Shown here: positions 8,332-44,610 of the stretch, in pieces | Position numbering within the stretch: the first letter of the stretch is position 1 | Layout of the letters: each line of letters opens with the position of its first letter | Assembly (NCBI GenBank): GCA_024278455.1 | Contig: JAJRTE010000091.1 | Coordinates: forward strand, 1-64,000 | From: Myxococcota bacterium | GTDB lineage: Bacteria; Myxococcota_A; UBA796; JAJRTE01 | Length of the DNA: 64,000 bases | Direction: 5' to 3' | Notes under the pieces: model-generated | Seen by the model: the letters and a program-made list of their open reading frames with translations, nothing else | Databases searched by the model: none | Told to the model about the DNA's origin: nothing | Program-made: the position numbers and the translations under genes

Positions 8332-8339
8332 GGCCCCCC

Positions 8340-10193: not shown

Positions 10194-10195
10194 GG

Positions 10196-12115: not shown

Positions 12116-12316
12116 AGCCATCGATCATCCATCGGTCCGCACCCTGATCTTGGGGCCGCAAGAGCCAGTTCGTCGGGCCCCTCGTTGTGTAGCAGAGGTC
12201 GGCCGCGGGTTCAAGAGGCCCTTTGCGGGTCTCTGCGGGTCTGGGCCGCGGGTTGGCCGACCATTTCTGGTCTCTGGGGCCTGGAGACACCCGGATCCGG
12301 CACAAGAAAACAAAAG

Positions 12317-12386
12317 ACCTCGTTGGCCCTGAGAGATCAGGGGGTTGAAGTAAGCGTAGAAAGAAACGCCCTTCACCAACGAGGTG
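12317..12386 (+). promoter_or_regulatory. Nested inverted repeats of unknown role
   Basis: ACCTCGTTGG (12317-12326) is perfectly complementary to CCAACGAGGT (12377-12386). Directly inside the left arm is a perfect 6-base hairpin CCCTGA-GAGA-TCAGGG (12327-12342) with a GNRA-type loop. The pair lies just ahead of a possible transposase start at 12393. It could be an RNA structure limiting transposase expression or an attenuator-like element. The surrounding gap between the helicase remnant and grpE (12116-12623) shows no intact gene. Confidence 0.35.
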
Positions 12387-12392
12387 ACGCCA

Positions 12393-12540
12393 TGATGGCA
12401 CAGGGCATCCTTCCCCCCGTACGCTGTCGAGACGACATCCAGAGGGCCGACTGGCCTTGGAGGTCTGCAGGCCTGCCTCGAGCGTGCGCGTGTGGCAGAG
12501 GTGGCGGATTGGGGTGGAGACGACCATCTTGACTTCCCGC
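12393..12540 (+). mobile_element. Possible IS1380-like transposase N-terminal relic
   Basis: ATG at 12393 reads MMAQGILPP. If one base is skipped in the C run, it then reads TGLGGLQACLERARVAEVAD. The combination 'MxQGxLPF ... TGLAGLPxYL' is typical of the start of IS1380-type transposases. Only about 45 codons remain before grpE. The similarity is short and needs a frameshift, so this is a weak call. It would fit as the right-hand scar of the defence island. Confidence 0.3.
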
Positions 12541-12623
12541 AGCCCATGCTTATAAAAGGGGCGGCAAGACATGACGCGACTCAATCACTTTTCCATATTG
12601 CAGGTACGGGGAGACTGTGCGTG

Positions 12624-14826: not shown

Positions 14827-15993
14827 GTGGAAAACTCCGAACTCAAGCACATTCTCGTCGTCGATGATGAAGACGTCATCCTCGAACTCTTCCGCACCTT
14901 GTTCCACGAGGATGGGTACCGGATGACCTTCTTGCGCGAAGGGCGCGATGCCGTGGACTTCCTGCGAAGGTCCCACGTGGACCTCGTCATCGCCGACAAG
15001 AACCTGCAGGACATGAGCGGTATCGAGGTCGCCAAGGTCGCCAAGAAGGTGGACCCCCTGACCGAGGTCATCATCATCACGGCGTTCGCGTCTCTGGACA
15101 CGGTCCTCGCAGCCATGGAGCTGGATGTCTACGACTACATGTTGAAGCCGCTCAGGAACATCTTCGACATCAAGAAAAAGGTCCGGCAGGCGCTCGCAAA
15201 GCAGGACATGACCCTGGAGAACCAGCGGCTTCTCCGACATCTCCAGGAACATGCACGCAAGCTCGAGGCTGCGCTGGAAGAGCGCAAGCGGGTCGAGTCG
15301 GAGCTGATCCAGAGCGAGAAGCTGGCCGGTATCGGAACCTTGGCTGCCGGAATCGCTCACGAGATTTCCAGCCCCCTGTTCGGAATTCTCGGGCTCGCCG
15401 AAGCCATTCTGGACGAGGACGACACCGAACTCGCGCGCCGTTATGCCCGCGAGATTGTCGACTACTCCAAGCAGATCAAGGATATCGTCCAGGAACTCTC
15501 CGTCTATTCCCGTACTGCCAAGCACGAGACCCCCTCGAGGATCGACCTGGTTCGCGTGGTGGAAGACGCCGTGCGCATGGTGGTGCGTTCCAAGAAAACG
15601 GATCCCGCGTGGATCCGGGTCGACTTGGAGGCGGGGCTCTCTCTGGTCGCGCGACCGAGCGAGATCCAGCAGACGATCGTCAACCTGGTAAAGAACGCCG
15701 TGGAAGCCGTGGAAGCAGGCTCGCAGAGCGAACCGCTCGTCCGTGTCACAGGACGGCACGAGAACGATGAGGTCGTTTTGCAGGTCGCCGACACCGGCCA
15801 TGGCATCTCGCCACAGCAGGTGGAGCAGGTATTCGACCCGTTCTTTACGACCAAAGACGTCGGAAAGGGGACAGGACTCGGCCTTCATATCGTGTATCGT
15901 ATCGTTACCAAGTATGGTGGCACGATACACGTCGATAGCGTGGAGCAGCAGGGTACGACCTTCACGCTACGGTTCCCTGCCGGAGATGGCTGA
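14827..15993 (+). CDS. Receiver-domain / histidine kinase hybrid (cytoplasmic)
   Basis: A 388-residue protein with a GTG start. Residues about 8-120 form a receiver domain: acidic pair VVDDED, phospho-acceptor Asp in LVIADKNL, and the conserved Lys in MLKPL. A coiled-coil linker leads to a HisKA domain (GIAHEISSPLFGI) and a complete HATPase domain with N box NLVKNAVEA, G1 VADTGHGIS, F box FDPFFTTK and G2 GTGLGLHI. There is no membrane segment. It probably receives phosphate from another kinase or modulates its own kinase activity. Its stop overlaps the start of the next kinase by one base (TGATG). No DNA-binding response regulator lies nearby. Confidence 0.9.
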   Translation: MENSELKHILVVDDEDVILELFRTLFHEDGYRMTFLREGRDAVDFLRRSHVDLVIADKNLQDMSGIEVAKVAKKVDPLTEVIIITAFASLDTVLAAMELDVYDYMLKPLRNIFDIKKKVRQALAKQDMTLENQRLLRHLQEHARKLEAALEERKRVESELIQSEKLAGIGTLAAGIAHEISSPLFGILGLAEAILDEDDTELARRYAREIVDYSKQIKDIVQELSVYSRTAKHETPSRIDLVRVVEDAVRMVVRSKKTDPAWIRVDLEAGLSLVARPSEIQQTIVNLVKNAVEAVEAGSQSEPLVRVTGRHENDEVVLQVADTGHGISPQQVEQVFDPFFTTKDVGKGTGLGLHIVYRIVTKYGGTIHVDSVEQQGTTFTLRFPAGDG

Positions 15994-17960
15994 TGCGCAT
16001 CAAGGCGAGGCTCATTCTGGCTTTCCTCTTTCTCGCTGCCGTGCCCCTGGCGAGTTCCTACTGGCGCTTGACCAGCGATGTCTACGAGACCGTCACCGTG
16101 CAGCGAGACATGTTCCGAGCCGAGCAGCTCGAGTCGCTCGCCAGGCAACTCGACTGGAACATGATGCAAGCCGCACAGAGCCTGCGACTGGGCCTGGAGG
16201 CCCTCGACCTGGCAAAGCTCGACGCGCGCGAGCGCCTCGGCGTGTTGAGGATTCTCTACAAGCAGCGGCCCTACATGACCGCGTTGAGACTGTTGGACAG
16301 TCGAGGCAAGCCGGTGAGCCAGGTGGTGCGGCTGCGAAGTCCGGACGAAGCGGTGGGCCAGTTCAAGGGCCGGCTCCCTGTGGCCAACGACGAAACCGCC
16401 GCACTCGACGACCCGGAACTCATCGCAGCCGCCCGGGAGCGGGGCATTGCCTGGGGAACTCCTATCGAGATCAGAGCGTCCCAGGATGACCGCCAGGTCC
16501 CGCTCGTCATGACCGTCGGCGGCGAACGTTTTCGATTCATGGCAGCGGCCCTGTTTTCCGTGGCCGACACATCGGGCGCTCGAGAAGCGATCCGAAGCTT
16601 CGCCCAAAGCCGTGCCCAGGGTCGTCCCATCGTCTACCTGACCGACAGCAACGGCACCATTCTCATGCGGGCCGCGGCCGAGGGCGCATTGGGTGGTGAC
16701 ATCGAACTCCCCGCCCCTTTGAACAAGTGGCTCGAAGGCGGCAACAGTGGACAAATAGAAACAGAGATCGGCGGCGTGCCGGAAAGCGTGGCATGGCATC
16801 GCCTCGACAACCTGGAGTGGCGCGTCGTAACGGCTCAGCCGAAATACGTTGTGGACGAAGTCGTGCGCAAGCCCATGCGGTTCGTCATCTACTGGGCCGT
16901 CATCAGCGTGTTGATCGCCGTCGTCCTTGGCCTCTATTTCTCGAAAACCCTGTCGAACCCCATTCGCGACCTCGCCGCAGGCGTCCTCGAGGTGGCTCGG
17001 GGCAACCTCGACGCCAGGGTGGAAGTACAGACTCGAGACGAAGTCGGCGAACTGGCCGAGACATTCAACTACATGGCTGGCGAACTGGCCAGCCAGAAGG
17101 CGGAGATCGAGCGTCAAAGCGAAGAGATCCGAAGCTGGAACAGGGAACTGCAGGCTCGTGTCGATGCGCGGACCCGGGAACTCAAGGAGGCCCAGGGCTA
17201 CCTCATCCACACCCAGAAGCTCGCCGCGGTCGCGGAGTTGGGCAGCGGGGTGGCTCATGAGCTGAACAATCCCCTTGCCGCGATTCTCGGATTCGTCCAG
17301 ATCTTGATCGCCCAGATCGAGCAGGAATCGGACAAGGGTCGTGCGGTTCCGGAGCAGGCGTTGACCATTCTCAGGCGGATCGAGGATCAGACGCAGCGAT
17401 GCCGTGAAATCGTGCATCATCTCTTGCGTTTTTCCCAGGAACAGGTGGATCGTGGGAGCTACGACATCGTCGACGTCGGCATGGTGGTGGGCACGGTATT
17501 GAAACTGTTCGGGGGGGCATTCGCGTCCCAGAAGATCTCGGTCCAGAACGACCTGGAATCCATTCGCCTGACGAGTTGGGGAAACCGGGCGCAACTGCTC
17601 CAGGCCTTCCTGCAGCTCTTCTCCGCTGTCAGGTCGGTGGCCCCGCCCGGCGCGCGCATACACGTCACCGGGGAGCGCGACGATGGCGTGGCCACGGTCA
17701 CGATCTCCGGGCCGCTCCGCGGACTCGAGAACAGCGGCGGAGACCTGTTCCGGCAGCAAATCACACAGGACCAGGCCATGGCCCAGGGGCTTGGCCTGTG
17801 GGTGGCTCGAGAAATATTCCAGGAACACCAGGGCGGATTGGAAATTGAAATCCTCGACGAGAGTAACCAGTCCGACGAAGCGCGGTTGGTGGTGACATTG
17901 CCTTTTCGGATGAAAGCGGGAGAACGCGAGCAGTCCGGCGAAGCCAGCGCCGGTTCGTGA
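15993..17960 (+). CDS. Membrane sensor histidine kinase with HAMP and degenerate ATPase domain
   Basis: A 655-residue protein: N-terminal membrane segment, a ~270-residue extracytoplasmic sensor region (dCache-like), a second membrane segment near residue 300 (VIYWAVISVLIAVVLGLYFS), HAMP, coiled coil, then HisKA with GVAHELNNPLAAILGF. The C-terminal catalytic domain is unusual. The N box position reads LLQAFLQLFSAVRS, lacking the key Asn; the DxGxG (G1) box is replaced by TISGPLRGLEN; only GLGLWVAREI recalls G2. ATP binding is therefore doubtful. It may be a sensor that is phosphorylated by, or heterodimerises with, the preceding kinase, to which it is translationally coupled. Confidence 0.85.
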   Translation: MRIKARLILAFLFLAAVPLASSYWRLTSDVYETVTVQRDMFRAEQLESLARQLDWNMMQAAQSLRLGLEALDLAKLDARERLGVLRILYKQRPYMTALRLLDSRGKPVSQVVRLRSPDEAVGQFKGRLPVANDETAALDDPELIAAARERGIAWGTPIEIRASQDDRQVPLVMTVGGERFRFMAAALFSVADTSGAREAIRSFAQSRAQGRPIVYLTDSNGTILMRAAAEGALGGDIELPAPLNKWLEGGNSGQIETEIGGVPESVAWHRLDNLEWRVVTAQPKYVVDEVVRKPMRFVIYWAVISVLIAVVLGLYFSKTLSNPIRDLAAGVLEVARGNLDARVEVQTRDEVGELAETFNYMAGELASQKAEIERQSEEIRSWNRELQARVDARTRELKEAQGYLIHTQKLAAVAELGSGVAHELNNPLAAILGFVQILIAQIEQESDKGRAVPEQALTILRRIEDQTQRCREIVHHLLRFSQEQVDRGSYDIVDVGMVVGTVLKLFGGAFASQKISVQNDLESIRLTSWGNRAQLLQAFLQLFSAVRSVAPPGARIHVTGERDDGVATVTISGPLRGLENSGGDLFRQQITQDQAMAQGLGLWVAREIFQEHQGGLEIEILDESNQSDEARLVVTLPFRMKAGEREQSGEASAGS

Positions 17961-28129: not shown

Positions 28130-31100
28130 GTGGCCAACCCGATACTCTTCGGCAAGTATCACCTTATCGAGAAGATCTCCGCCGGCGGAATGGCCGAGGT
28201 GTACAAGGCCAAGTCTTACGGGGTGGCGGGATTCGAGAAGATTCTCGTCATCAAGAAGATCCTTCCCCACTTGACGTCCGACAGCGATTTCGTGCGCATG
28301 TTCCTGGACGAGGCGCGCATCACGGTGTCGTTGTCTCACGGCAACATCGTGCAGGTGATCGAACTCGCCAAGGAGGGAGAAACATACTTCATGGCCATGG
28401 AGTATGTCCACGGCTACGATCTCGCCCGGACCCTGGTCCGCAGTCGGCAGACCGAGCCGTTTGCCAGGCCGTTGTGCCTGTATGTTCTTTGCGAAGTCCT
28501 CAAGGCGCTGGACTACGCGCACCGGCGAAAGGACCGGGAGCAGCGCGATCTCAACATCGTTCACTGCGACGTTTCCCCCCAGAACGTCCTGCTGTCGTTC
28601 GAGGGAGAAGTCAAGTTGACGGACTTCGGGATCTCCCGGGCGGCATTCCAGTCTGCGTCTTCGCAGGGGGTGGTTCGCGGAAAATACGCCTACATGTCGC
28701 CGGAGCAGGTGGAAGGGCGGACGCTGGACCGCCGTTCCGACATCTTTTCCGTCGGCATCATACTTTGGGAGATACTGACCGGAAAGCGGCTGTTCAAGAC
28801 CGACAATGTCGAGAAGACGCTGCGCAAGGTACTGACCGCCCCGATTCCGCGTCCTTCGGAAATCGTGCCGGACGTACCCGAGGAGTTGGACCGGATCACG
28901 CTCAAGGCGCTCGCGCGCAGTCTCAAGACGCGTTACCAGGAAGACCAGGAGATGCTCGAGGACCTTTCGGCGTTCATGTTTGCCCAGGGCATGCACGTTT
29001 CGTCGGCGGATCTCGCCGAGTATCTCCGGAAAGTGTTCGCGGAGGAGCTTCAGCGCAGCCGCGGTGAGGACCTGGGATTCGGCATCGTTTCCGGAGACGG
29101 AGCCCGCGAAGGGCGACCCGGCCGCCGCAGCACCATGTTCATTCCGGTCGGGTCCAGTCGCACGATTCCGTCGTATCAACCAACACCCGATCTCGCCAAG
29201 GCCGTTCTCCTGTCTCGCACCGGCGTTGTCGTGCTGTGTGCCGAATGGAACCGCGGTGCTCCTGGCGGCTCGCATGTTGGAGAGCGCGACAAGGCGCTGC
29301 GCGCGTTCGTGAACAAGTTCGAGAGTCGAGTGGAACGCCTGGGGGGTGATCTGTGGGAGATCAACCACAACAGCTTTGTCGCGTGCTGGCGGACCGGCGA
29401 CGACCCGGCCGGGGCGAACGTGCTGGCCCTCGAGTGCGCTTCAAGCCTCGTGGACGAGTTCGCATCGACCGCCGGAAAAGGTGACAACGCCTGGAGCCTC
29501 GACGTCGGTTGTCACCTCGGGTCGGTGCTCGTCGAGCGCAGGAGTGGGAATCCCCTGTTCGGCTGGCAGGTCACGGAGACATTCGTCATCCCCAGGTTGC
29601 TCGTCAACCTGGGCAGCGGCAAGAATCGTATCCTGGTGTCCAAGCAGGCGAAAACGCTCGCCCCGCGGCGCTTTTCGTTCAAGAGCGTCCGGCTGGGCAA
29701 GGGTGCGCCGCCCAGGCTGTCCCGTGTCTACGAGTTGGTGGAGCCGGAGCAACGCGCGGGCGAACGACTGAAGTATGCCCTCTACACCAGGTACCTGGGG
29801 CGAGAGCCCATGCTGGCCAACCTCGTCGACCGTCTTCGGGAGGCGGAAGAGGGCAAGCCGTCTGTCGTGCTTCTCCTTGGCGAGGAGGGCATGGGCAAGA
29901 GTCGGCTGCGCGAGGAGTATCGCCAGTCCTACCGCAAGCTCGGCGCCGCCTTCTTCGCCGGGACATCTTTCGAGGGGAGGCGCCACTTCGCCTATTTCAC
30001 GCTCCTGGACGCGCTGCGGAAGATCTGCGGCATCATCCCGCCGGAGAGTCCCGAGACCGAGAAGGAAAAGCTGGCCCGGCTGACCCAGTTGGGGTTGTCT
30101 CCGGAAGACTTGGAGACGGTACAATCGTTGTTCGAGGAGCCAGCGGTCACGTTCCCTCAATCGCAGGATTCGAGCCGGAAGTACGGCCTGTTCGTGTTGT
30201 TCGACAAGTTGCTGGCCGGCCTGTCCAAGGACGCCCCGCTGGTCCTCGCTTTCGAGGACTTCCAACACGCCGACACCTTGACCGAGGAGTACCTGGCGCA
30301 CCTCGTCACGCGGTTGAAGAACCTGAAGCTCGTGCTCCTGCTGGAAGTGCCGCCGGACTTCTCGAGGCCCTGGCTGTCCGCGGCCCCCATTTCACCCATC
30401 AAGTTCGAGGGAATGCCCAGTCCCATGGCGGAGGCCATGGTCAAGGACATGCTCGGCACCAGCGAAGTGGCCTTCGAACTCCTCCAGACCATTCTCGCGT
30501 CCACGGGAGGCGTCCCCCGGTACATCAAGGACTACGTCGCACTGTTGGTCGAGGAGGGGTTCATCGAAATCAAGGACGGTGTGGCGTGCCTGGACGCCCA
30601 GGCCGAAGATGCGTCGCTGCCCGGGTCTCCCAAGGCCCTGATGGCCCGCCGATTCGCCATGCTGCCAGAAGCGGTGCGCGCCACCCTCAAGGCTGGGGCT
30701 GCCCTGGGCATGCTGTTCCCCGTCTCCGTGCTCAAGCGGTTGATTCGGACCAGGGCCGATGTCCGGGCGTTGCTCCAGCACGCCGTCGCCATGGGTATCC
30801 TGAAGGAGAGGCAGGTGGGCCACGTCTGTTCCTTCAGATTCCGGCATTCCTACTACCGCTGGCTTGCCGCGCACCAGCCACTCGGTTCGACCACACGCGA
30901 ACTCCACCGGCGCATCGCCGGAAACATCCGCGCATGGGCACCGTTGGGACGTGGAAACTTCACCGAGCAAACGGCCGTGAGCGCCAGGCTCGGAAAGCTC
31001 GAGGACGCCAGCGAACGATTGGAGAAGGCTGGCGACAAGCTGGCCTACGAGCAGGGTGTGGCTTCTGCGCTCGTCTACTATCGTTGGGCACTCGAGGCAG

Positions 31101-32191
31101 TTCGCGCCGCCGACGATTCCGGGGGAGACCGCCGCAGGCGCCTCCGGTGGAAAATCGCCGGCACGGTCCTCTACCAGGGCTCGTTGACCGATTCCGACGA
31201 CCTGCTTCACGAGTGGCTCGCATCGGCCAGGCGTTCCGGACTCGAGCACCAGGCGATTGGACTCATGTCCGACCTGGGTCAGCAGTACGCCGTTCGAGGC
31301 GACATGGACAAGGCGGTCAAGGTGCTCCGCGAGGCCCTCGCCATTGCTGGAAAGCATGGGCGTTCCGCCGTGGTCGGGCGCCTCGAGGCCGAACTGGGCA
31401 CCACGCTCATGCGGCGCGGAGACCTCGAGGAGGCCATGCACCACCTCTACGGTGCCTACCAGCGTGCCAAGCGCGATGGGGACCGGGCCGCGGTGTTGCG
31501 ATACGCCCTGCGTGTGGGCGCCTTCTATCACCACGCGGGCCACTACGCCAGGGCGCTGGACAGCTTTCGCAAGGTCATCGTCGCCGCCCGGGAGATGGAC
31601 GACTCGAGGCTCTTGCTGGACGTGCTCATGGCCCTGGGCGATCTGCACCGGGACCTTCACCGGGACAGCCTGTCTCTCAGGTGCTACAAGGAGGCCCTGG
31701 GCATCGCGAGGGAACTCGGGGACCAGGCGGCCCAATCCCGGATCCTGGGAGATATCGGACGCCTGTGCCTCGAGCAAGACGTACCACAACGCGCTCACCC
31801 CTACCTCAAGGCAGCGCTCGAGCTGTCCACGGCAGTGCACCGGCCCGAACTCGAGACGGACCAGAAGCTATCGCTCGCCTACCTGAAGGCGCTCGTCGGC
31901 GAACCCAAGGCAGCGCTGAAGGAGATCCACCTCGTCATGTCCCGGCCGGAAACCGGACGACTCAGGTACGTGGTCGCGCGTGCCCACCTGCTGTCCGGCA
32001 AGTGCCAGGTGCTCATGCGGGAGAACCGCCGGGCGCGAGAAGCCTTCGAGCGTTGCCTCAACGTGGCGAAGGACCTCAAGAATGCTCCTCTGGCTCGCAT
32101 CGCCACGATGGCCCTGGGCTCGATACCTTCGCATCGTGTCAACATGCCCGCCAACCTGCCGGGCAACGGCCCCCTCGAGGGAACACCTTGA
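28130..32191 (+). CDS. Ser/Thr protein kinase / cyclase-like / AAA ATPase / TPR fusion
   Basis: A 1353-residue protein with a GTG start after AGAGG. Residues ~8-270 form a Hanks-type kinase: Gly loop SAGGMAEV, Lys in ILVIKKIL, catalytic loop IVHCDVSPQN (HCD instead of HRD, Asp retained), DFG in LTDFGIS, and MSPEQ. Residues ~360-530 resemble a class III cyclase homology domain without obvious metal-binding Asp residues. An NTPase follows with Walker A LLGEEGMGKSRL near residue 580. The last ~400 residues are TPR-like repeats. Such kinase-ATPase-TPR giants are abundant in myxobacteria and are thought to integrate signals. No transmembrane segment is evident. Substrates unknown. Confidence 0.85.
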   Translation: MANPILFGKYHLIEKISAGGMAEVYKAKSYGVAGFEKILVIKKILPHLTSDSDFVRMFLDEARITVSLSHGNIVQVIELAKEGETYFMAMEYVHGYDLARTLVRSRQTEPFARPLCLYVLCEVLKALDYAHRRKDREQRDLNIVHCDVSPQNVLLSFEGEVKLTDFGISRAAFQSASSQGVVRGKYAYMSPEQVEGRTLDRRSDIFSVGIILWEILTGKRLFKTDNVEKTLRKVLTAPIPRPSEIVPDVPEELDRITLKALARSLKTRYQEDQEMLEDLSAFMFAQGMHVSSADLAEYLRKVFAEELQRSRGEDLGFGIVSGDGAREGRPGRRSTMFIPVGSSRTIPSYQPTPDLAKAVLLSRTGVVVLCAEWNRGAPGGSHVGERDKALRAFVNKFESRVERLGGDLWEINHNSFVACWRTGDDPAGANVLALECASSLVDEFASTAGKGDNAWSLDVGCHLGSVLVERRSGNPLFGWQVTETFVIPRLLVNLGSGKNRILVSKQAKTLAPRRFSFKSVRLGKGAPPRLSRVYELVEPEQRAGERLKYALYTRYLGREPMLANLVDRLREAEEGKPSVVLLLGEEGMGKSRLREEYRQSYRKLGAAFFAGTSFEGRRHFAYFTLLDALRKICGIIPPESPETEKEKLARLTQLGLSPEDLETVQSLFEEPAVTFPQSQDSSRKYGLFVLFDKLLAGLSKDAPLVLAFEDFQHADTLTEEYLAHLVTRLKNLKLVLLLEVPPDFSRPWLSAAPISPIKFEGMPSPMAEAMVKDMLGTSEVAFELLQTILASTGGVPRYIKDYVALLVEEGFIEIKDGVACLDAQAEDASLPGSPKALMARRFAMLPEAVRATLKAGAALGMLFPVSVLKRLIRTRADVRALLQHAVAMGILKERQVGHVCSFRFRHSYYRWLAAHQPLGSTTRELHRRIAGNIRAWAPLGRGNFTEQTAVSARLGKLEDASERLEKAGDKLAYEQGVASALVYYRWALEAVRAADDSGGDRRRRLRWKIAGTVLYQGSLTDSDDLLHEWLASARRSGLEHQAIGLMSDLGQQYAVRGDMDKAVKVLREALAIAGKHGRSAVVGRLEAELGTTLMRRGDLEEAMHHLYGAYQRAKRDGDRAAVLRYALRVGAFYHHAGHYARALDSFRKVIVAAREMDDSRLLLDVLMALGDLHRDLHRDSLSLRCYKEALGIARELGDQAAQSRILGDIGRLCLEQDVPQRAHPYLKAALELSTAVHRPELETDQKLSLAYLKALVGEPKAALKEIHLVMSRPETGRLRYVVARAHLLSGKCQVLMRENRRAREAFERCLNVAKDLKNAPLARIATMALGSIPSHRVNMPANLPGNGPLEGTP

Positions 32192-34770: not shown

Positions 34771-35207
34771 CGCAAGCGCTCAACAAACCCCACCTACCGC
34801 CCGGCTATCGCCAACGGAATGATGCGGGACAACCGGAACAGCATACGATAAGGAGGTTGTCATGAAGCAGAATCGAAGTCTTCCGACACCTTCCGGGGCC
34901 ATGTCATGGCAGGTCCAGCGTGGACCGGTGGCGAGCCAGCGGCCTTGGCCGGGCTGAGTACTGCCGTCAGCATGAACTCTCGTATTGGGCCATGAGTTAC
35001 TGGTACAAGAAGCTCGTCCATCAGCGAAAAAGCGAGATGGGCGTGGTTCGGCAAGCTGCTGGGGCTGGTCGCGATGTCCGGGACAGGGCGAGTAGCCGGG
35101 TGGTCGAAGTGGGCGTCGTGGTGCGCCCCGAGGAGCAGGAGCGGCGAGCGGGTGTGCGTGTGTTCGTGTCCCCGAAACCCGGCCTTCGGTCACACATCTC
35201 CCCATAA
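34771..35207 (+). mobile_element. IS66-family relic: terminal sequence plus broken tnpA
   Basis: The left end (34772-34810) matches the solitary sequence at 3903. A Shine-Dalgarno AAGGAGG precedes an ATG at 34861. The first ~20 codons run in one frame; a one-base slip near 34920 leads into RWRASGLGRAEYCRQHELSY and WAMSYWYKKL, the helix-turn-helix signature of the IS66 accessory protein TnpA, ending at a stop at 35205-35207. TnpB, the large transposase and the right end are missing, so the element is dead. The stretch 34723-34770 holds nothing else recognised. Confidence 0.7.
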
Positions 35208-35551: not shown

Positions 35552-36301
35552 ATGAAAAAGCAACGTGGCCAACGCCCAGACGATTCGAGCCCGGCCGACC
35601 CGGAACGAAAAAAGCAGAACGAGGAGGAGCGCGCGTGGGTCGAACGGGCTCGCGCCGGCGATGCGGAGGCACAACGCCACGTCCACGCGATCGCCCTGCC
35701 CGCCATTTCAACCACCGTGACCATCACGCTGGGACGGGATGGCGCTTCGCGGGAGGACATCGAGGAGACCATCGCCGTTGCCCATCTCGAGTTCGAGAAG
35801 TCGCTGGAAAGATGGGAAGGCAAGGGGACCCTGGTCAGCTTTGCGCGGGGCATAGCGCGCAACTGCTGCAAAAGGCGCCTGTCCAACAAGATGAAAGGAG
35901 AGGTTCTGCCACGCGTCCCCATCGGTGAACCGGGGGGGGCGCAGCTAGTGGAAGCTCGGCCCAACCCGGAGATCCGCGTCGCCGACGCCGAGCTGGTCCG
36001 CCTCCTTCTGGAAGAATTCGATAAGACGAGCGAGGAGGAACGCGCCTGCTTTCGCATGCATTTCGTCGAGGGGCGGAGCGCCCGGCAGATCGCTGACGAA
36101 CTGGGCAAGGAAGTGAATACGGTTTACCAGACCGTCTACAGGATCAGGGGGAGAGCCAGGCGAATCCGGGACAGACTGCAGGAGACCGGGCTTGAGTCCT
36201 CACCTCCAAGAGAAACCGAAAACGGAGAGGAAAACGGGCCAGAAAAGCGTCCCCTTGCCCGATCGCGAGCTAAGAAAGAGCGCGCCAGGAAGACTGGCTA
36301 A
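35552..36301 (+). CDS. ECF-type RNA polymerase sigma factor
   Basis: A 249-residue protein. A charged N-terminal tail leads into sigma region 2 (WVERARAGDAEAQRHVHAIA and FEKSLERWEGKGTLVSFARG, with IARNCCKRRLSNK as the DNA-contact helix). Region 4 follows (TSEEERACFRMHFVEGRSAR and QIADELGKEVNTVYQTVYRI). Region 3 is absent, which defines the ECF class. The C-terminal ~45 residues are very basic and unusual. It is the first gene of a set with a zinc-finger protein and a CHAT protease, whose coding starts soon after. That context suggests its activity is held by the second gene and released by proteolysis; this part is inference. Confidence 0.85.
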   Translation: MKKQRGQRPDDSSPADPERKKQNEEERAWVERARAGDAEAQRHVHAIALPAISTTVTITLGRDGASREDIEETIAVAHLEFEKSLERWEGKGTLVSFARGIARNCCKRRLSNKMKGEVLPRVPIGEPGGAQLVEARPNPEIRVADAELVRLLLEEFDKTSEEERACFRMHFVEGRSARQIADELGKEVNTVYQTVYRIRGRARRIRDRLQETGLESSPPRETENGEENGPEKRPLARSRAKKERARKTG

Positions 36302-36368
36302 CCAGGGGGACGGTCCGCGCTGCCCGGAGCCCCGAATGGGCACACTGGCCAGCGGGAGTGCACGTAGC

Positions 36369-37064
36369 ATGAGTGGAGCACGAGGCAACGAAGACATGAA
36401 CGCCCTTCTCAGGGAAGCCGGTGCCTACCAGCGGTTCCGGGAGGGCGGTTGCGCCCCCGAGTCCGTGTTCGACGCCTACCGGCGCGGCACCCTGCCCGAA
36501 GAGGACTGTTCCAAGCTCGAAGCGCACCTCCTGAGCTGCAACCGTTGCGTCCGGGCACTTGCGGGCCCGGGCTCCCCGTTCGACACCCTCCCGGCGATGT
36601 CTGCCGACCGGGCCTGGGGCAGCGCACTCTGTGTAGCAGCGATCGCCTTGGGCAACGTCGACTACTGGACCGTCCAGAAGCTCGTCCCGGCCCTCGATGC
36701 GCAGGGTTTCCTCGTCCGGGAGGAGGAAAACAGGGGCTTCCTGGCATGCTGCGAGGTGGGAACCGGTTCGGTCGGAGGCGACCCGGTGGATGCAGGCCGC
36801 CTTGCTGGAGCGGTACGCGCGATCGAGGCCGTGCTCTCCCTGGAACCCGGGTTCGGCGCGGCCGTCTTCGTGTCGCGCGGGCTCATTTCCAACGCCGGGC
36901 GTCCCATCGGCGACGCTCTTGAACAAGCTCGCTCTGGCTTTGCCGACGTGCAGCGGGGCGCGGTGCTGCTCAGTCCTCCGGTCGCAGAACGGGTTGTGCC
37001 TCTCGGTCTGCCGGCCCGGGCGCGTCCAGAGACCGCACCCTACAGCACGCTGTCGAGAAGGTAA
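36369..37064 (+). CDS. Zinc-finger anti-sigma-like protein with degenerate cyclase-homology domain
   Basis: A 231-residue protein. The ATG at 36369 follows GGGAG; a later ATG at 36396 is possible. Residues ~40-64 form a zf-HC2-like finger (TLPEEDCSKLEAHLLSCNRC, with H53, C57 and C60), typical of anti-sigma factors. The C-terminal ~140 residues resemble a class III nucleotidyl-cyclase homology fold without its metal-binding Asp residues (GAAVFVSRGLISNAGRPIGD and QRGAVLLSPPVAERV). Unlike most anti-sigma factors it has no membrane segment, so it would act in the cytoplasm. Position between a sigma factor and a protease makes it a good candidate for the proteolytic switch. Confidence 0.55.
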   Translation: MSGARGNEDMNALLREAGAYQRFREGGCAPESVFDAYRRGTLPEEDCSKLEAHLLSCNRCVRALAGPGSPFDTLPAMSADRAWGSALCVAAIALGNVDYWTVQKLVPALDAQGFLVREEENRGFLACCEVGTGSVGGDPVDAGRLAGAVRAIEAVLSLEPGFGAAVFVSRGLISNAGRPIGDALEQARSGFADVQRGAVLLSPPVAERVVPLGLPARARPETAPYSTLSRR

Positions 37065-37154
37065 GCAACCGCGAGGGAGCCCGGGGCCGCGGGCGTCTGC
37101 GTACTGGGACGCCTGTCCAGGCTCGGCGGCCGCGTTCGGGCCTTCTTCAACTGG

Positions 37155-40100
37155 ATGGACGCAAGGCTCGAGGACTTCGCCGGCTTCGACATGGTGGTAA
37201 CACCCTGCCCGGTGCGAAGCCGGGTCCGGCACCATCGGCCATCCGGGCCGGAACGCGCGCATAGTCCTGCCCGGCTCGCCAGGAGAGATCGCATCGAGAT
37301 TCGATATCGCCGCCCCACGTCCGCCGTCGTCTACCTGGTGCTGGTGAGCGACGACCGCCTGACCGCCTGCTTCGACGGCGAACCACTTCCTCCCCCGGGG
37401 CGGGGAGAGGACGTGCAGGAGGTCGAGATCGTTCTTGGCCCCCAACCGGCCATCGAAAGACCGGTGCTCGTCGCGGCGTTCGAGCCCATCGAAGGGTTCG
37501 CTGACCGGCTCGAGGAGGTCAACGCCGCCACGGTCGCCGGCCCGGACGAGCGGCTCGAGCGGCTGGTCTCGGTCCTGAACGAGCAGTGCTCGAGCGGGGT
37601 AGTGGTCCTGGAGGGAGGCGGCTTCCGGCACGACGAAGCGCAGGAGCCGGCTGTTCCGCCGGAACTCCAGCCGGTCTACACGGCCCTGGAAGCGGCCGAG
37701 TGGGAGAAAGCCGAGGCCCTGCTTCGCGCGCTCGATCTGGCCGGCAGTCCCGACCGCGCCCTGGCCGCGGAGTCCGCTTTCCTGCTGGGGAGGGCACTAC
37801 GGCGCCAGGGGCGGCTCCAGGAAGCACTCGAGGCCCTGGAGCGGGCGGAGCAGGTGGCGAACGAGGCCGACACCGGCGAGATCGCGGCCATGGCGGCCCG
37901 GGAGGCGGGGCGTGCACTGCTGGACGCGGGGTCCCACGACCGCGCCCTGGCCTGTTTTTCCCGTGCGCTGGCGTTTCACGAGAAGAGCGGGGATCGTGTC
38001 GAAGCAGCCCGGGAGCACCTCTCGATCGGGTGGGGGCTCTACCGGCAGGAGCGTTACACCGAAGCCCGGGAGGCCTACTCGAAGGTGCTTCACCCCGCCC
38101 GTCAGGCCGGCGAGAAGGTCCTGCTGGCCGCTGCGCTCGAGGCCATCGGTCAGCTTGAGCACGAACTGGGCCGCTTCGAGAACGCTCGCGCGCGATTCGG
38201 CGAAGCCCTGGAAGCCTATCGTGAACTAGCGGACGAGCGGGGTCAGATGAAGGTGTTCGGCGACCTGGGCCTCCTGGAACTGGAGTTGGGGAGGTACGAG
38301 AAAGCGGTTCCCTACTTCCGGCAGCAGCGCGAACGCGTGCGTCGCGTCGGAAGTCCACAGGAGGTGGGCATCAGCGCACTCAGCCTCGGGGCGGCCCTGG
38401 CCGGCGGCCGGCAATACGATGAAGCCCGCGACCTGCTGGACCGGGCGCTGGAGACCCTGCCCGCGGAGCCGCCGGCCTATCGAGACCAGGCCCGGGTGGT
38501 GGCTGGCGAACTCGAGTTGAACCGGGGAAACCTGGAGGAAGCCGCCAGGTTGCTGCAGCTCGACGCGCCGCTCTCGCGGGACCTTGCCCTGGAGACGCTG
38601 CGGAGGGCGGCGCTTGCGCGAGGACGGCTCCGGGAGGCGCTCGAGCTGCCTGGCGCGGAGGCCGAGTACCGCACCGGGGTGGAGGCGGTGGAGAGGGTGC
38701 GGACCGGGCTCCCCCGGCTCCTGCGGACCGAGTTCTCCCGGTTCAGCCTCGCCCTCTACGAGCGGTGGATCACCCAAATGGTGCAACGGGCCGCACCCGG
38801 GCTCGAACTCCTCGACGCGATGGAGCGCGCCCGGGCTCGAGCGTTTCTCGAGGCCCTCGTGGCATCGGATCCCGCCGCGGATCCTGCCGGGATGGACGAT
38901 GCCCCGCCCTCCTCGACGGACCCAGCCACAGATCCCGTGCTCGACGCTGAAGCGCTGTGCAACCGGCTCCCGGCAGACACCTGCTTTCTCGTGACCCACA
39001 CCTTGCCCGACCACCTCGTTCTCCTGAAAGTCCACGACGCCAACGTCGATTGGCGGGCACTGCCTGTCGCCCGGGCCACGTTGATCGAGAAGATTCAGGC
39101 CGCTCGAGCCTGCCTGCGAACGCCCCCCGGCGAGGACACGGCCGATTCCCGTTCGTTCGACCACCTCCGGCCGCTCGTCGACCTCTCCGACCTCCTCTTG
39201 GACCCGATCCAGGACTGGCTCGAGGTCCTGTCTCCCGGCACACCCCTCGGATGGGTGCTCCAGGGCCCGCTCCATGGCCTCCCGATCCACGCGCTGCCAC
39301 GGCCGGACGCGCGCCATCTCCCCGGTGACGCGCTGATCGGCACGCACCCGATCTTCTACTTGCCCTCACTCCAGGCAGGCGTCCGGTGGGTCTCGAGACC
39401 ATCTTCGACCCAGGCGCTCGTGGCCGCCCTGGCCAATCCCCACGGGGACCTGCCCCATGCCGAGGCCGAAGCGCGGGAGATGGTCGCGCTGCTGAAGGGG
39501 ACCGAGCTGAGAATCGGTGCCGGCGCGACCGTCCGGGTCCTGGAGACACTCGCGCCCCGGGCCAGGTACTTGCACCTGGGCGTGCACGGTTCTCGAGGCG
39601 CGCCCGGACGTCCGGCCACGCTCACGCTCGCTCCCACGCCGCCCCGGAGAAAGGAGGAGCAGGCCCAGGACGGACCCCGCGAGGACGCCCGGAACGTGCG
39701 CTACGCCACCGGGGAGGCGACAATCGACGCCTACCGGATCATGCGGCTCCGGCTTTCCGCCGAGCTGGTCACCCTGTCGGCCTGCGAGTCGGGCGGCGGC
39801 CCGCTCGCCGACACCGGCGAGGGTCCGCACATCCTCTCGTGGGCGTTTCTCGCCGCCGGCGCTCGAGCAGTGGTGGCCACCGGCTGGCGCGTGGACGATG
39901 CCGCGAGTGCGCGGTTGATGTCCTGGTTCTACCGAGAGCTGTCCCAGGGGCGCCCTCGAGCACTCGCCCTGGCGATGGCGCAGCGGAAGATGTTCGCCGG
40001 CGACGAGCCGACCCCGGCGTCGCCTCGGGAGACCCGGACGGTGGGCGTACCATCTTCCCCGAGTGGGGAAGCCGAACGAGATCACCACCAAGGGGAGCCG

Positions 40101-40193
40101 TGCCCGGATGAGGGAGCAGCGCCCTCTCGTCGAGCCAGGCACACGCACCCCTACTACTGGGCCGGTTTCTTTCTCAGCGGTGACTGGCGATGA
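37155..40193 (+). CDS. TPR-CHAT caspase-family protease
   Basis: A 1012-residue protein. The N-terminal ~130 residues resemble a DUF4384-like beta domain (RIEIRYRRPTSAVVYLVLVS). About eight TPR repeats follow (residues ~170-500; for example LGRALRRQGRLQEALEALER and GWGLYRQERYTEAREAYSKV). A CHAT domain fills the C-terminus. The catalytic His is His811 in YLHLGVHG and the nucleophile is Cys877 in LVTLSACESGGGP. The protein ends in HPYYWAGFFLSGDWR, the standard CHAT closing strand. CHAT proteases are separase/caspase relatives activated by attached sensor modules. No ribosome site precedes the ATG at 37155 and the frame is open upstream, so the start may lie nearer the previous gene. The stop overlaps the next gene by 4 bases (ATGA). 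Confidence 0.88.
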   Translation: MDARLEDFAGFDMVVTPCPVRSRVRHHRPSGPERAHSPARLARRDRIEIRYRRPTSAVVYLVLVSDDRLTACFDGEPLPPPGRGEDVQEVEIVLGPQPAIERPVLVAAFEPIEGFADRLEEVNAATVAGPDERLERLVSVLNEQCSSGVVVLEGGGFRHDEAQEPAVPPELQPVYTALEAAEWEKAEALLRALDLAGSPDRALAAESAFLLGRALRRQGRLQEALEALERAEQVANEADTGEIAAMAAREAGRALLDAGSHDRALACFSRALAFHEKSGDRVEAAREHLSIGWGLYRQERYTEAREAYSKVLHPARQAGEKVLLAAALEAIGQLEHELGRFENARARFGEALEAYRELADERGQMKVFGDLGLLELELGRYEKAVPYFRQQRERVRRVGSPQEVGISALSLGAALAGGRQYDEARDLLDRALETLPAEPPAYRDQARVVAGELELNRGNLEEAARLLQLDAPLSRDLALETLRRAALARGRLREALELPGAEAEYRTGVEAVERVRTGLPRLLRTEFSRFSLALYERWITQMVQRAAPGLELLDAMERARARAFLEALVASDPAADPAGMDDAPPSSTDPATDPVLDAEALCNRLPADTCFLVTHTLPDHLVLLKVHDANVDWRALPVARATLIEKIQAARACLRTPPGEDTADSRSFDHLRPLVDLSDLLLDPIQDWLEVLSPGTPLGWVLQGPLHGLPIHALPRPDARHLPGDALIGTHPIFYLPSLQAGVRWVSRPSSTQALVAALANPHGDLPHAEAEAREMVALLKGTELRIGAGATVRVLETLAPRARYLHLGVHGSRGAPGRPATLTLAPTPPRRKEEQAQDGPREDARNVRYATGEATIDAYRIMRLRLSAELVTLSACESGGGPLADTGEGPHILSWAFLAAGARAVVATGWRVDDAASARLMSWFYRELSQGRPRALALAMAQRKMFAGDEPTPASPRETRTVGVPSSPSGEAERDHHQGEPCPDEGAAPSRRARHTHPYYWAGFFLSGDWR

Positions 40194-41092
40194 TGGAGGA
40201 AAAGATGGCGGAGAAAACCCGTGAGACCGAACCCCGGGCAGCGGAGGCCTGGGTGACCCGCGTGGAGCCTTCCGAGCACCGGGATCTGGCCATCGTCGCC
40301 CGATTCCCCGCCCCCGTCGCGGCGACCCTGGCGCTGGTCGTCGTGGAGGGTGCCGGTACCGGAGCGGCACGGCTGCTGGGAAGCGTGGACAGCGGGCCGG
40401 ACGACGCACAGGCACTGCGCCTCGAGGTACCCGCGGACGTGGCATTCGGGACCGATGGCGGTCCCGACCTGCGAGTGATGCTCGAGGGCGCTGCAGCATG
40501 GCGCCCGCTCCATGCCATCGTGGCCCCTGGCCGGCCACCTCCCGAGTGGCTGGAAGCCGCGGTTCTCGAGCGATCGAGCACGCTGGGAGCGGGTGGCGTC
40601 GCGCCCGGGACCACGCTCGAGCTGGTCAGTGCCGGCAAGCTCTCGAGTCGGCCTGGCAAGGGGTGGCCGGTGTGCAGCATGCAGCCGGAGGGCTACACGC
40701 ACACGACCTGGGAAGTCGAGCAAATGCGGACGCTCTTCGCGCTGGGGGGGAGCACCCGGCGCGTATGTGAATGGACACGAAACGTGACTGCCCGGCGCGG
40801 CGCGCGGGCGGTGGTCGTGTCCCCCCGCTGGGTCATCACGGAGGAGAGCCACTCTGTGTGCGTCATCGAGATGCCCGAACTGTTCGGACTGCCCGATCCC
40901 TACGTGGAGATCTCCGCGTTCTGCGATACCTCGACGACAGACTGGACACGGTTCGCCGGGACCGAGTTGGAAGTCCGCTCCGCGGGCGTGGGTGACGAGG
41001 TCGAGGCGATCCTGGCCACCGAGCCGGAACTGAAAGTGCGGTTCACCATCGACGAAGCAGGAACGCCCATCGTGAGCGACGTGGCCCGCTGA
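40190..41092 (+). CDS. Unrecognised protein coupled to the CHAT protease
   Basis: A 300-residue protein that I do not recognise. Its ATG overlaps the CHAT stop (ATGA), so the two are translationally coupled. Residues 1-110 look beta-rich (IVARFPAPVAATLALVVVEG, AQALRLEVPADVAFG). The middle has a Ser/Gly/Pro-rich, probably exposed segment (RSSTLGAGGVAPGTTLELVS). The last ~90 residues look like another compact beta domain with several cysteines. There is no signal peptide or membrane segment. Coupling to a protease suggests a substrate, inhibitor or effector; none of this is shown by the sequence. Confidence 0.6.
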   Translation: MMEEKMAEKTRETEPRAAEAWVTRVEPSEHRDLAIVARFPAPVAATLALVVVEGAGTGAARLLGSVDSGPDDAQALRLEVPADVAFGTDGGPDLRVMLEGAAAWRPLHAIVAPGRPPPEWLEAAVLERSSTLGAGGVAPGTTLELVSAGKLSSRPGKGWPVCSMQPEGYTHTTWEVEQMRTLFALGGSTRRVCEWTRNVTARRGARAVVVSPRWVITEESHSVCVIEMPELFGLPDPYVEISAFCDTSTTDWTRFAGTELEVRSAGVGDEVEAILATEPELKVRFTIDEAGTPIVSDVAR

Positions 41093-41164
41093 CACCGGCT
41101 ACCCGTTCACGCCAGCCCTGGGCTCGTGCCCCGAGCGACAGCCTGCCGAACGGTCGCGCCCAGG

Positions 41165-42640
41165 TCAACGTGAACGATTTCCGAAGGGCAGGCCACGGAA
41201 TACCGCACGCGAAGGCTGGGCAGCCATCACGCGCCGTCCGGCCGGCACGCCCCCCGCGGTGACCATGGGGTCGCCCAGGACAATCCACCCCCTGGCGTCG
41301 TGCCACTGGAACCAGTCGAAGATGGTTCGGTCCGAAACGGTGCCGGACGTCCCCCGGCGGTTGAACGTGCGCCGCGCCAACCGGTCCGCACACCGGTTCG
41401 CCGCACTGACGAAGCTCCTCGCCGCAGGACCCACGGGCAATCCGTTGCACAGACCTGCGGTCATGGAGAACAGCGGCTCCACACCGCTGCTTCCCGCGCT
41501 GTGCGGTTTTCTCCCGAAGTAGTCCAGGAGCCCCCAGACAAAGAGGATGTCCACGTGGGCAACGATCGCCAGGGGTCCAGATGGTTGGGCGAGAAGCCAC
41601 GACGGCAGGTCGGACACGCGGTCGGCTTCCGGAAGAGCGACCTGCCAACCCGGCAAGAGGTCGGCCCAACCGCGGTCTCGAGGCGTGCCACCGGAGTTGC
41701 AGGCGTGAAGGATCACGACCCCTCCTCCCGGCTGGGTCTGGTTACCACACGTGCTCCGGAGCCAGCTCGAGTCGATGGGGTTGCCCTCCTGATCGGTTGG
41801 AGCCCCCTGGCGCGGGTGCGCAGGCTCCTTGCTTTCCACCCCGTGGGTTCCGGCGAGCAGAACCATGGCATCGCCCGATCCGGTCGCACGCACCTCGTCG
41901 ATCAGGCGATCCCTGGTGGCGTCGCTGCCCAGGAGCCGCCGGACGGTCGTGCCGCCCCGGCGTCCCGTGGCATGTCTGCTCCCTCCCCGGCTGGCAGATA
42001 CCTCATCGGCGATGGAGCCAATCACCCGGCGGCTGAGCCGCGTCGCATCGTCCACGCTCGTTGCAACGGCAAGCAGGGAGGTCCGCGCCGGCACCGTGGG
42101 CTGCGTCTCGAGCGCGACCACCTTCTGGGCGTACTGGTGATAGCCGTCGAGATCGGCAAAGCTCAGCCGGCCAACCGGGTGGTCGATGGCAAGGTGGTGT
42201 TGCAATTCGAAAGGGAGATCTTCCGGGCCGCCCGCCAGGAGGAAGTAGTCGGTCCGGGCGATCTGGCTCGTGTTGTTTCCCTTGTTTCGCCAGTTCTGAA
42301 TGTCCTCTTCGGACAGGCCCCCCGCGGGCGGGTGCTGGAACCGCAAGGGCTCCAGCACCACGTCGTTTCGGTGGCGGATGAGGGGCTCGAGGGCTTCCAG
42401 GATCCGAGTTCCGCCCTGTCCGTGCGGGTCGTCATGGGCCGGGACGACCAGTCGCCACGTGGGCTTCGAGAGAGCACGAAAGTGTACCGAGCGCACCGGG
42501 ATCGGTACCATGCCGAGCCGGTTCGCCACAGCGGAGCGCAAGGTATCCGCGTCGACACCATCGAAGGCAGGGCTGCGCCCGTCGGGCTTGACGGCGGGGA
42601 TAGTGACGTGCTCGGGCAGGTGGAGGAAGTCATCGCTCAC
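41165..42640 (-). CDS. Caspase-fold cysteine protease, C25/gingipain-like
   Basis: A 491-residue protein. The GTG at 42640 has an excellent GGGAGG site 5 bases upstream and was preferred over ATGs further upstream. The caspase-type dyad is visible: His266 in LLAGTHGVES and Cys314 in VVILHACNSGGTP, each after a hydrophobic strand as in clan CD. An upstream block, DYFLLAGGPEDLPFELQHHL followed by GRLSFADLDGYHQYAQKVVA, resembles the 'GRL' region of peptidase C25. There is no signal peptide, so it is probably cytoplasmic, unlike gingipains. It converges on the CHAT cluster with 72 bases between stops, giving two different caspase-fold proteases side by side. Confidence 0.65.
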   Translation of the reverse strand: MSDDFLHLPEHVTIPAVKPDGRSPAFDGVDADTLRSAVANRLGMVPIPVRSVHFRALSKPTWRLVVPAHDDPHGQGGTRILEALEPLIRHRNDVVLEPLRFQHPPAGGLSEEDIQNWRNKGNNTSQIARTDYFLLAGGPEDLPFELQHHLAIDHPVGRLSFADLDGYHQYAQKVVALETQPTVPARTSLLAVATSVDDATRLSRRVIGSIADEVSASRGGSRHATGRRGGTTVRRLLGSDATRDRLIDEVRATGSGDAMVLLAGTHGVESKEPAHPRQGAPTDQEGNPIDSSWLRSTCGNQTQPGGGVVILHACNSGGTPRDRGWADLLPGWQVALPEADRVSDLPSWLLAQPSGPLAIVAHVDILFVWGLLDYFGRKPHSAGSSGVEPLFSMTAGLCNGLPVGPAARSFVSAANRCADRLARRTFNRRGTSGTVSDRTIFDWFQWHDARGWIVLGDPMVTAGGVPAGRRVMAAQPSRAVFRGLPFGNRSR

Positions 42641-42984: not shown

Positions 42985-44610
42985 CTACTCGAGGGTGACG
43001 TATTCGGGATCGTTTCCCGGGGTCGCGAACGTACCACTCACCAGGTCGTAGAAGTCCAGTTGACCCGAAACGCCCTCTTCGCGGATGTCGGTGGCAAAAA
43101 CCGTGGTGTCGTCCACGACGAAGTTGGTCCCGTCGTACGCGATCAGTTCATCCACGCTCAGCATGCGGGTCAGCCAGGCCTGATGGATCATGACCACGTC
43201 GGCCTCGGTGTAGAGGTCTCCCTCGAGCTTGTCGGGAGCGACCGCCTGACCACCGAAATAGAGCGGGTTCGTGTTGCTCGAGTCGTCGACGACGCTGGAG
43301 AGAGCGACTTCCGCTCGCTTGACACCGTTGACCCAGAATGCCAGCATGTTGGTGTCCGCGTCGAATTGAACACAAAAAGTGAGGGTCGTGTCCGGTCTCA
43401 GCACGGACGAAGAGGAGTCATCCCATCGGAAACTGTTCCAACCTCCCAAGTAGACCCACCCCAGGGCGAAAGGCGGATTTTCGTCGAGGCTGACTTGCAA
43501 TGCCACGTCGCCGGTCTTGTCCTCCCAGGCCTTGCCCCGGAAGAAATGCCAGCCGGGCCTCGCGCCTGCCGGGAATCGCACGGCCTCGAGGATGGACCAG
43601 GACCCCCCAGACATGAACCCGGCCATGTCGGAAAAGGCGAAATAGTCCTCGTCGGTGGCGGATAGCCGGAAGGCGCCCGGCGGTTGCTGTGCCCCGCACA
43701 CGTAGACAGTATCGTCGATTTCATCGTCATCCAGGACACCGTTGCCTGCATGGCCCTCGGCACTCCCGTCGTCCTCGCCCACGTCGACGCGGACCCCACC
43801 GAACGGGCAGTTCTCTCCTTCCGGCTCAGTTGCCACGTCCACCAGGCTGGACACCCCGCTGCACACGTAGCTCGATGCCGCGATCTCGTCGCTGTCGAGC
43901 GTTCCGTTGGCGTTGAGATCCGTTCCGGATTGCACGAGGACGCCGCCTGCAGGACAGTTGTCCCCCGGCGGTTCCTCGATCTGCTGGATCAGGCTCGACG
44001 GGCCTTCGCCGCTCTCGGGGGCGCAGACATAGGTGGTATCGGTGACCTCGCCGGCTTGAAGGACCCCATCTCCGTTGGTGTCCGGACCAGTCGAGATGGC
44101 CTGGCCGCCCGCAGGGCAACTGTCTCCCGCCGGTTCCGGGGAGATCGAGACGAGGGAGCCGGGCGCCCCGTCCTGTCCATCGGCTCCATCGGCCCCATCG
44201 GCTCCATCGGCCCCATCGGCTCCATCGGTCCCGTTGCACACGTAGGTCTGGTCCTGGATTTCGGCGTCGTCGAGCTGGCCGTTTCCATCGGCGTCCAGTC
44301 CCCACGTGATCCGCACACCACCAGCGGGGCAGTTGTCTCCTGGCGGTTCTTCCGATGTTTGAATGAGTGTGGTGGCGCCTTCAGATGTGGTGTTGCACAA
44401 ATAGACGGTGTTTTCAACTTCGTCCGGGTCCAGGCTCCCATTTCGGTTCGTGTCCACCCCGGTGAGGACGGCCTCACCTCCGCCATCGCAGTTTTCTCCG
44501 GGTGGTTCTTCCCGGGTTTCTATGAGACTCGTGTATCCATCTTCGGGCGGAGTTCTTCCGCAGCTTCCTAGAAAGATCGCAAGGCTGGCCAACAACAACT
44601 TTTTTCTCAT
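42985..44610 (-). CDS. Lipoprotein with Cys-containing EF-like repeats, collagen-like spacer and LamG-like domain
   Basis: A 541-residue protein. The signal MRKKLLLASLAIFLGSC ends in a lipobox with Cys17. Five repeats of ~45-50 residues follow (DUF7151-type): 'EEPPGxNCPxGG ... GxDxNxNGxLDxxEI ... YVC', each with two cysteines and a calcium-loop-like Asp/Asn-rich core. Between repeats two and three is a short collagen-like GADGADGADGADGADG tract. The C-terminal ~220 residues form a LamG/concanavalin-like sandwich (FSDMAGFMSGGSWSILEAVR, FCVQFDADTNMLAFWVNGVK). The architecture is characteristic of myxobacterial surface lipoproteins. Its role is unknown, perhaps carbohydrate binding. Confidence 0.75.
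   Translation of the reverse strand: MRKKLLLASLAIFLGSCGRTPPEDGYTSLIETREEPPGENCDGGGEAVLTGVDTNRNGSLDPDEVENTVYLCNTTSEGATTLIQTSEEPPGDNCPAGGVRITWGLDADGNGQLDDAEIQDQTYVCNGTDGADGADGADGADGADGQDGAPGSLVSISPEPAGDSCPAGGQAISTGPDTNGDGVLQAGEVTDTTYVCAPESGEGPSSLIQQIEEPPGDNCPAGGVLVQSGTDLNANGTLDSDEIAASSYVCSGVSSLVDVATEPEGENCPFGGVRVDVGEDDGSAEGHAGNGVLDDDEIDDTVYVCGAQQPPGAFRLSATDEDYFAFSDMAGFMSGGSWSILEAVRFPAGARPGWHFFRGKAWEDKTGDVALQVSLDENPPFALGWVYLGGWNSFRWDDSSSSVLRPDTTLTFCVQFDADTNMLAFWVNGVKRAEVALSSVVDDSSNTNPLYFGGQAVAPDKLEGDLYTEADVVMIHQAWLTRMLSVDELIAYDGTNFVVDDTTVFATDIREEGVSGQLDFYDLVSGTFATPGNDPEYVTLE

Follow-up and report, generated by a model that had tools for sequence, protein, structure and literature searches.

Release of sigma factors by proteolysis has been described for several bacterial systems. 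In the type III-E clustered regularly interspaced short palindromic repeats (CRISPR) system known as Craspase, Csx30 inhibits CASP-sigma and Csx29 cuts Csx30 (PMC10028731), and CalpL cuts CalpT to set CalpS free (PMC11417357). Proteolytic control has been proposed for the extracytoplasmic function (ECF) sigma factors of group ECF54, which occur in a context of CHAT, subtilase and carboxypeptidase-type genes (PMC8999054). Moreover, ECF sigma genes occur in caspase-containing EACC2 systems (PMC8195603), and operons joining a sigma-70 gene to a caspase homologue are found in Myxococcus, Haliangium, Sorangium and others (PMC3501461). Here, we analyzed a stretch of 64,000 nucleotides from a Myxococcota bacterium (contig JAJRTE010000091.1 of assembly GCA_024278455.1, positions 1 to 64,000; hereafter, the window), focusing on an operon that encodes, in order, an ECF-type sigma factor, a candidate inhibitor of the zinc-binding anti-sigma (ZAS) type, a protease with tetratricopeptide repeats and a CHAT domain (TPR-CHAT), and an orphan protein. 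Protease-linked sigma control is not new, since ECF54, the Myxococcus operons, Craspase and CalpL/CalpT/CalpS are all published—the window represents a CRISPR-free, cytoplasmic variant. We assign a probability of roughly 0.5 to the reading that positions 35552 to about 41092 constitute a CRISPR-independent, protease-controlled sigma-factor switch.

In the mechanism that we propose, the ECF-type sigma factor would be held by the soluble ZAS anti-sigma protein, while the cytoplasmic TPR-CHAT protein from the same operon would sense a trigger via its N-terminal and TPR regions; once activated, it would cut the inhibitor, or its complex, and the sigma factor would be freed. The window operon would be the cytoplasmic version within a broader family of operons, whose other members appear to combine a single-pass membrane inhibitor with an exported TPR-CHAT protease, often a lipoprotein; at the envelope, this protease would attack the outer portion of the inhibitor much as a site-1 protease does. 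Sigma binding, cleavage, the direction of its effect (release, not shut-off) and the trigger are what we infer in this scheme; gene order, domains, compartments and precedent all suggest binding, cleavage and release, and the operon is probably a protease-controlled switch.

Like the type III-E locus (Cas7-11, Csx29, Csx30 and CASP-sigma), the window encodes a TPR-CHAT protein, an inhibitor and an ECF-type sigma factor together, and the CHAT domains are homologous, with the window profile matching Csx29-type CHAT structures at about 3e-12. However, the window protease is not Csx29 (15.6 bits against NF041237, the cut-off being 300), and its putative inhibitor is a zf-HC2/ZAS protein, whereas that of Craspase is Csx30. 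No CRISPR-type direct repeats were found around the operon (positions 25000-50000), and none of the five proteins encoded between 35552 and 42640—those of the operon plus a convergent C25-like gene—matched a Cas family above cut-off, Cas7-11 not having been searched for in the rest of the genome. The initial annotation, made from the sequence alone, had proposed a Craspase-like logic without CRISPR, and this proposal agrees both with the lack of a repeat array around the locus and with the recurrence of such operons independent of CRISPR.

Other described systems share individual features with the locus. CalpL/CalpT/CalpS, from type III CRISPR systems, likewise relies on a cytoplasmic protease that frees an ECF sigma factor by cutting an anti-sigma factor (PMC11417357), but its protease belongs to the Lon family, carries a SAVED domain and is activated by cyclic tetra-adenylate (cA4), whereas the window combines CHAT and TPR without SAVED. 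Two sister loci of the source genome, L009 and L011, resemble the ECF54 context in carrying CHAT and subtilase genes, L009 also encoding a CarboxypepD_reg protein. In contrast, ECF54, compared here by gene context, was described without an anti-sigma factor and from an actinobacterial example, while the window operon departs from that context in having, besides its CHAT gene, an anti-sigma candidate and no subtilase seen beside it. The Myxococcus operons similarly place a sigma-70 gene and a caspase-fold protease in one operon (PMC3501461), yet their proteases are metacaspase (C14-type) homologues, unlike the TPR-CHAT protease and explicit inhibitor gene of the window. The sister operons are also reminiscent of envelope site-1 systems of the RseA/DegS kind, with a CHAT cysteine protease taking the place of DegS; the pair in the window differs further in lacking any membrane component. 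Finally, the window inhibitor carries the ZAS signature known from the anti-sigma factors RsrA, ChrR and RshA. In the literature covered, outside of which lie subscription journals, we found no description of a sigma factor/ZAS inhibitor/TPR-CHAT operon family or of its two topologies.

The five genes that the initial annotation had placed between 35552 and 42640 were all found there as open reading frames (ORFs), and each was picked as a gene by a hexamer-based caller trained on the source genome. The first (35552-36301, forward strand) encodes a protein of 249 residues that matches TIGR02937 with an E-value of 7.6e-17 (61.4 bits; cut-off 42.9) and the Pfam family Sigma70_r4_2 at 2.4e-9, region 2 falling slightly under its own Pfam cut-off. 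With regions 2 and 4 present and region 3 absent, the product is of the ECF type, as had been annotated, and its closest relatives within the set compared are those of loci L096 and L122. The third gene (37155-40193, forward strand) encodes the 1012-residue TPR-CHAT protease, in which TPR_12, TPR_2 and TPR_1 matches cover about residues 205-447 (37767-38495) and a CHAT domain (39171-40184) was recognized with an E-value of 8.2e-48 and 163.7 bits against a cut-off of 24. Its catalytic dyad, His811 (39585-39587) and Cys877 (39783-39785), is unchanged across eight aligned CHAT proteins, and the annotated dyad assignment is upheld. The protein bears no signal peptide, lipobox or membrane anchor.

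Between these two lies the anti-sigma candidate (36369-37064, forward strand), a protein of 231 residues with an N-terminal ZAS domain. It matches zf-HC2 with an E-value of 1.4e-5, which exceeds the Pfam cut-off, and its predicted zinc ligands are spaced C28-x24-H53-x3-C57-x2-C60 (36450-36548); the H-x3-C-x2-C part of this motif appears in 0.11% of shuffled sequences. In a single-sequence structure model, four N-terminal helices (mean predicted local distance difference test score, pLDDT, of 71-77 for residues 1-50) fit an anti-sigma domain, while the remainder of the model is unreliable. The predicted ZAS domain accordingly combines the C-x(about 25)-H-x3-C-x2-C pattern with a helical anti-sigma fold. 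No membrane helix is present, the best 17-residue hydropathy being 1.5 as compared to 1.98-2.91 in 12 relatives, in agreement with the initial description of a soluble zinc-finger anti-sigma-like protein. No NCBIfam match above cut-off was obtained for the protein; its C-terminal domain, of unassigned type, is possibly a degenerate cyclase-like domain. The full single-sequence model had a mean pLDDT of 49 and gave no significant Foldseek match, so we claim no fold for this C-terminal part, nor for the orphan protein described below. The inhibitor also showed a TPR-like resemblance to a TPR lipoprotein, which may be compositional.

These features also form the basis of the main rival explanation, which we consider somewhat unlikely. 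Under this alternative, a soluble ZAS anti-sigma factor akin to RsrA, ChrR and RshA would shed its zinc upon thiol oxidation and release the sigma factor unaided, and the CHAT protease would be an effector expressed under the sigma factor and not its activator. The full ligand set C-x24-H-x3-C-x2-C, a weak match to the RsrA model (TIGR03988, E-value of 0.013) and the fact that characterized soluble ZAS proteins answer oxidative signals (PMC8999054) speak for such a redox mechanism, against which stand several properties of the related operons presented in what follows.

To place the protease-controlled switch in a genomic context, the source genome was compared to 71 genomes of its class, mostly draft assemblies and related to it at class level at closest, and to a phylum-wide set of 379 genomes. 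Genes were called in the regions around ~64 CHAT genes from the 71 class genomes and scored with sigma and CHAT profiles. Around CHAT genes encoding at least 500 residues, 226 gene slots lay no more than two genes away, and 19 of them held a sigma factor, whereas the sigma density in ten of the class genomes predicts 1.3 (binomial P about 1e-16, or about 2e-8 with a threefold higher background, for lineages that share ancestry and are not independent). This count includes L047, with a truncated CHAT gene and a nearby sigma factor, as well as L101 and L104, with sigma genes on the opposite strand, which we do not claim as operons of this kind. Fifteen of the 19 sigma genes lie on the same strand as the CHAT gene; at the same loci, 371 genes stand at a distance of at least three places from CHAT, and only one of them encodes a sigma factor. 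In the source genome itself, a sigma gene lies at most two genes from four of the seven CHAT genes (window, L009, L011 and L066). Among the CHAT relatives found, the nearest, at locus L122 of Myxococcota isolate KLAP118, comes from a different class of the phylum and shows the gene order of the window: sigma factor, membrane inhibitor and TPR-CHAT. The sigma-linked members of a tree of 68 CHAT domains are spread over several deep lineages, and well-supported branches require no fewer than eight changes; a CHAT match on a Paraburkholderia plasmid had no sigma neighbor. The combination of sigma factor, ZAS zinc-finger protein and TPR-CHAT protease is a recurrent module. Hence, of the five-gene neighborhood suggested at first, the conserved adjacency applies to these three genes, which are found together across the class and again in a second class of the phylum, and not to the C25-like gene, with its relatives elsewhere, or to the orphan, which has none. 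The absence of such adjacency in relatives, named at the outset as refuting the circuit, was not observed.

The sister operons usually run from the sigma gene through an inhibitor with one membrane helix to the TPR-CHAT gene, with permuted orders in L009, L011, L065 and L066. Membrane inhibitors retain the ZAS ligands at L058, L060, L062, L064, L065, L011 and L066, and lack them at L009, L090, L093, L094 and L122. The inhibitor and protease genes overlap by an ATGA at L058, L060, L090, L093, L094 and L122, which suggests partners produced together and not a mere regulon gene. Furthermore, all 12 membrane inhibitors are paired with a protease bearing a lipobox, a signal peptide or a C-terminal membrane anchor, and all three soluble inhibitors (those of the window, L095 and L096; best 17-residue hydropathy of 1.24-1.50, against 1.98-2.91 in the membrane cases) with a protease devoid of export signals. 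At L095 and L096, the CHAT gene stands beside a sigma factor and a soluble protein of 205-207 residues, for which zf-HC2 was weakly matched at L095 (E-value of 0.005). This perfect match of compartments would have an exact probability of 1/455 were the 15 loci independent, which they are not.

Matching compartments support a physical relation between protease and inhibitor, and offer the best indirect argument for the inhibitor being the target of the protease. The window pair is consistent with this pattern, since an inhibitor without a membrane segment meets a protease without an export signal, and the cytoplasmic protease therefore fits as the partner, as first suggested. The genes, their domains, the catalytic dyad, the conserved neighborhood and the matched compartments were observed directly. 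These observations bear on the redox mechanism as well: the protease gene adjoins the inhibitor gene even where ZAS ligands are missing (L090, L093, L094, L009 and L122), the two genes overlap in several lineages, and compartment matching would be unexpected for a mere target gene. The tight, often overlapping arrangement of inhibitor and protease genes, indicative of a regulatory partner, likewise disfavors another unlikely scenario, in which the protease, expressed under control of the sigma factor, has other proteins as its targets in a stress or conflict response, resembling prokaryotic caspase effectors, with the inhibitor controlled by an unlinked signal or by a protease such as ClpXP. 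CHAT proteins and caspase homologues are frequently effectors, a SAVED-CHAT protein is encoded beside a sigma factor in the source genome (L009:12911-15016), and binding sites for CASP-sigma in the type III-E locus suggest autoregulation of defense genes (PMC10028731); on the other hand, the five proteins encoded between 35552 and 42640 had no defense family match beyond generic TPR.

Several points weigh against the protease-controlled switch. In the class, the majority of CHAT genes lack a sigma neighbor, and the same holds for the mostly cyanobacterial TPR-CHAT proteins recovered by a contig search with CHAT and for those of Geobacter. The compartment match was observed in few independent lineages; at L095 and L096, the arrangement is divergent and the CHAT gene is fused to a kinase or AAA domain instead of being a TPR-CHAT gene. 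The sigma profile was trained on loci that it then scored, and no clear ribosome-binding site precedes the likely start of the window protease. Moreover, the ZAS domain could sense the redox state by itself.

The junction between inhibitor and protease genes may provide a clue to how the cytoplasmic form may have arisen. Both genes share one reading frame on the forward strand and are divided by a single TAA (37062-37064) and 30 in-frame codons, up to 37154, that contain no start codon and have a weak coding score—possibly the trace of a split gene, a once fused gene or a sequence error. By eye, two similarities to the L122 inhibitor can be seen: the window inhibitor looks like its N-terminal part over residues 80-215, and the CHAT protein looks like its DUF4384-like outer domain over residues 43-160. 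The L122 inhibitor itself matches PF14326 (DUF4384) at an E-value of only 0.0029. HHalign and shuffle tests of the window inhibitor and CHAT N-terminus against the L122 inhibitor were not significant, and we therefore keep this resemblance as a lead. If it is real, a sensor domain would have passed from the inhibitor to the protease when the two departed from the membrane, a fused gene being a possible intermediate.

We tentatively propose that Myxococcota harbor a CRISPR-free family of CHAT-controlled sigma factors in two compartment-matched forms, one membrane-bound or exported and the other soluble and cytoplasmic, that the cytoplasmic form could be the kind of system from which Craspase arose, and that the sensor of the window system may sit on the protease, in its DUF4384-like N-terminus. 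Most of the widespread CHAT proteases have no known substrate. Should the linked inhibitor be the substrate, these operons would offer a natural series of protease-substrate pairs outside CRISPR, hint at the origin of Craspase-type signaling and add a cysteine-protease route to the few known ways of ECF sigma release; the compartment match predicts one substrate per protease, which is readily testable.

Two further genes had been included in the circuit by the initial annotation. The orphan protein (300 residues; 40190-41092, forward strand) is encoded by an ORF whose start overlaps the CHAT stop codon (ATGA), although a later ATG at 40205, preceded by GGAGGA, is the likelier start. No Pfam, NCBIfam or PADLOC family was matched, no relative was detected in the 71 class or the 379 phylum genomes, and a search against genome contigs returned nothing; the single-sequence model (mean pLDDT 41) gave no significant Foldseek match. 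The annotated coupling to the CHAT gene is thus borne out by the overlap, whereas membership in the circuit cannot be assigned to a protein without relatives, and a substrate role is a guess. The convergent gene (41165-42640, reverse strand) encodes a candidate cysteine protease whose His266 and Cys314, the dyad proposed for it, are retained in four of five aligned relatives, while its assignment to Pfam C25 is weak (E-value of 0.0092; 15.7 bits, under the cut-off of 23), and a profile search gave no relative in the PDB. A cascade of two proteases involving all five genes, for which the convergent position and the conserved dyad could be invoked, appears highly improbable: the gene lies on the opposite strand, its relatives in four genomes (L117-L120) have no CHAT or sigma neighbors, and none of the genes in the sister operons was recognized as related to it. 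The C25-like gene is therefore not part of the conserved unit and is probably a mere neighbor outside the circuit, and the notion of two caspase-fold proteases in one circuit finds no support.

Additional observations concern the surroundings of the operon and its relatives. A PknK-like protein that combines Ser/Thr kinase, AAA and TPR domains is encoded 3.4 kb upstream (28130-32191), and its TPR region has 28% identity to that of the CHAT protein. Immediately upstream of the sigma gene, an ORF at 34920-35207, which we take to be a possible remnant of an IS66 TnpA-like transposase-accessory gene, gave no match in a Pfam scan. Downstream, the product of 42985-44610 resembles a lipoprotein and contains five DUF7151 repeats as well as a short collagen-like GADGADG stretch. 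A defense island spans 3983-11621 and comprises a type III restriction gene (5659-8331), a methyltransferase split into ORFs 8340-9206 and 9216-10193, a PDC-M41 A/B pair and a PD-Lambda-2-like gene (10196-11299). At other loci of the class, including L048, L050 and L053, TPR-CHAT has a second recurrent partner, a CsgG/FlgO-like exported protein of about 220-260 residues encoded directly upstream, with no sigma factor. At L009, the SAVED-CHAT gene overlaps the sigma gene (12108-12914) and adjoins genes for a TPR-CHAT lipoprotein and the CarboxypepD_reg protein; the convergent gene downstream (15059-17806) encodes a subtilisin-like protein with seven tandem GFISSSLG copies near its C-terminus.

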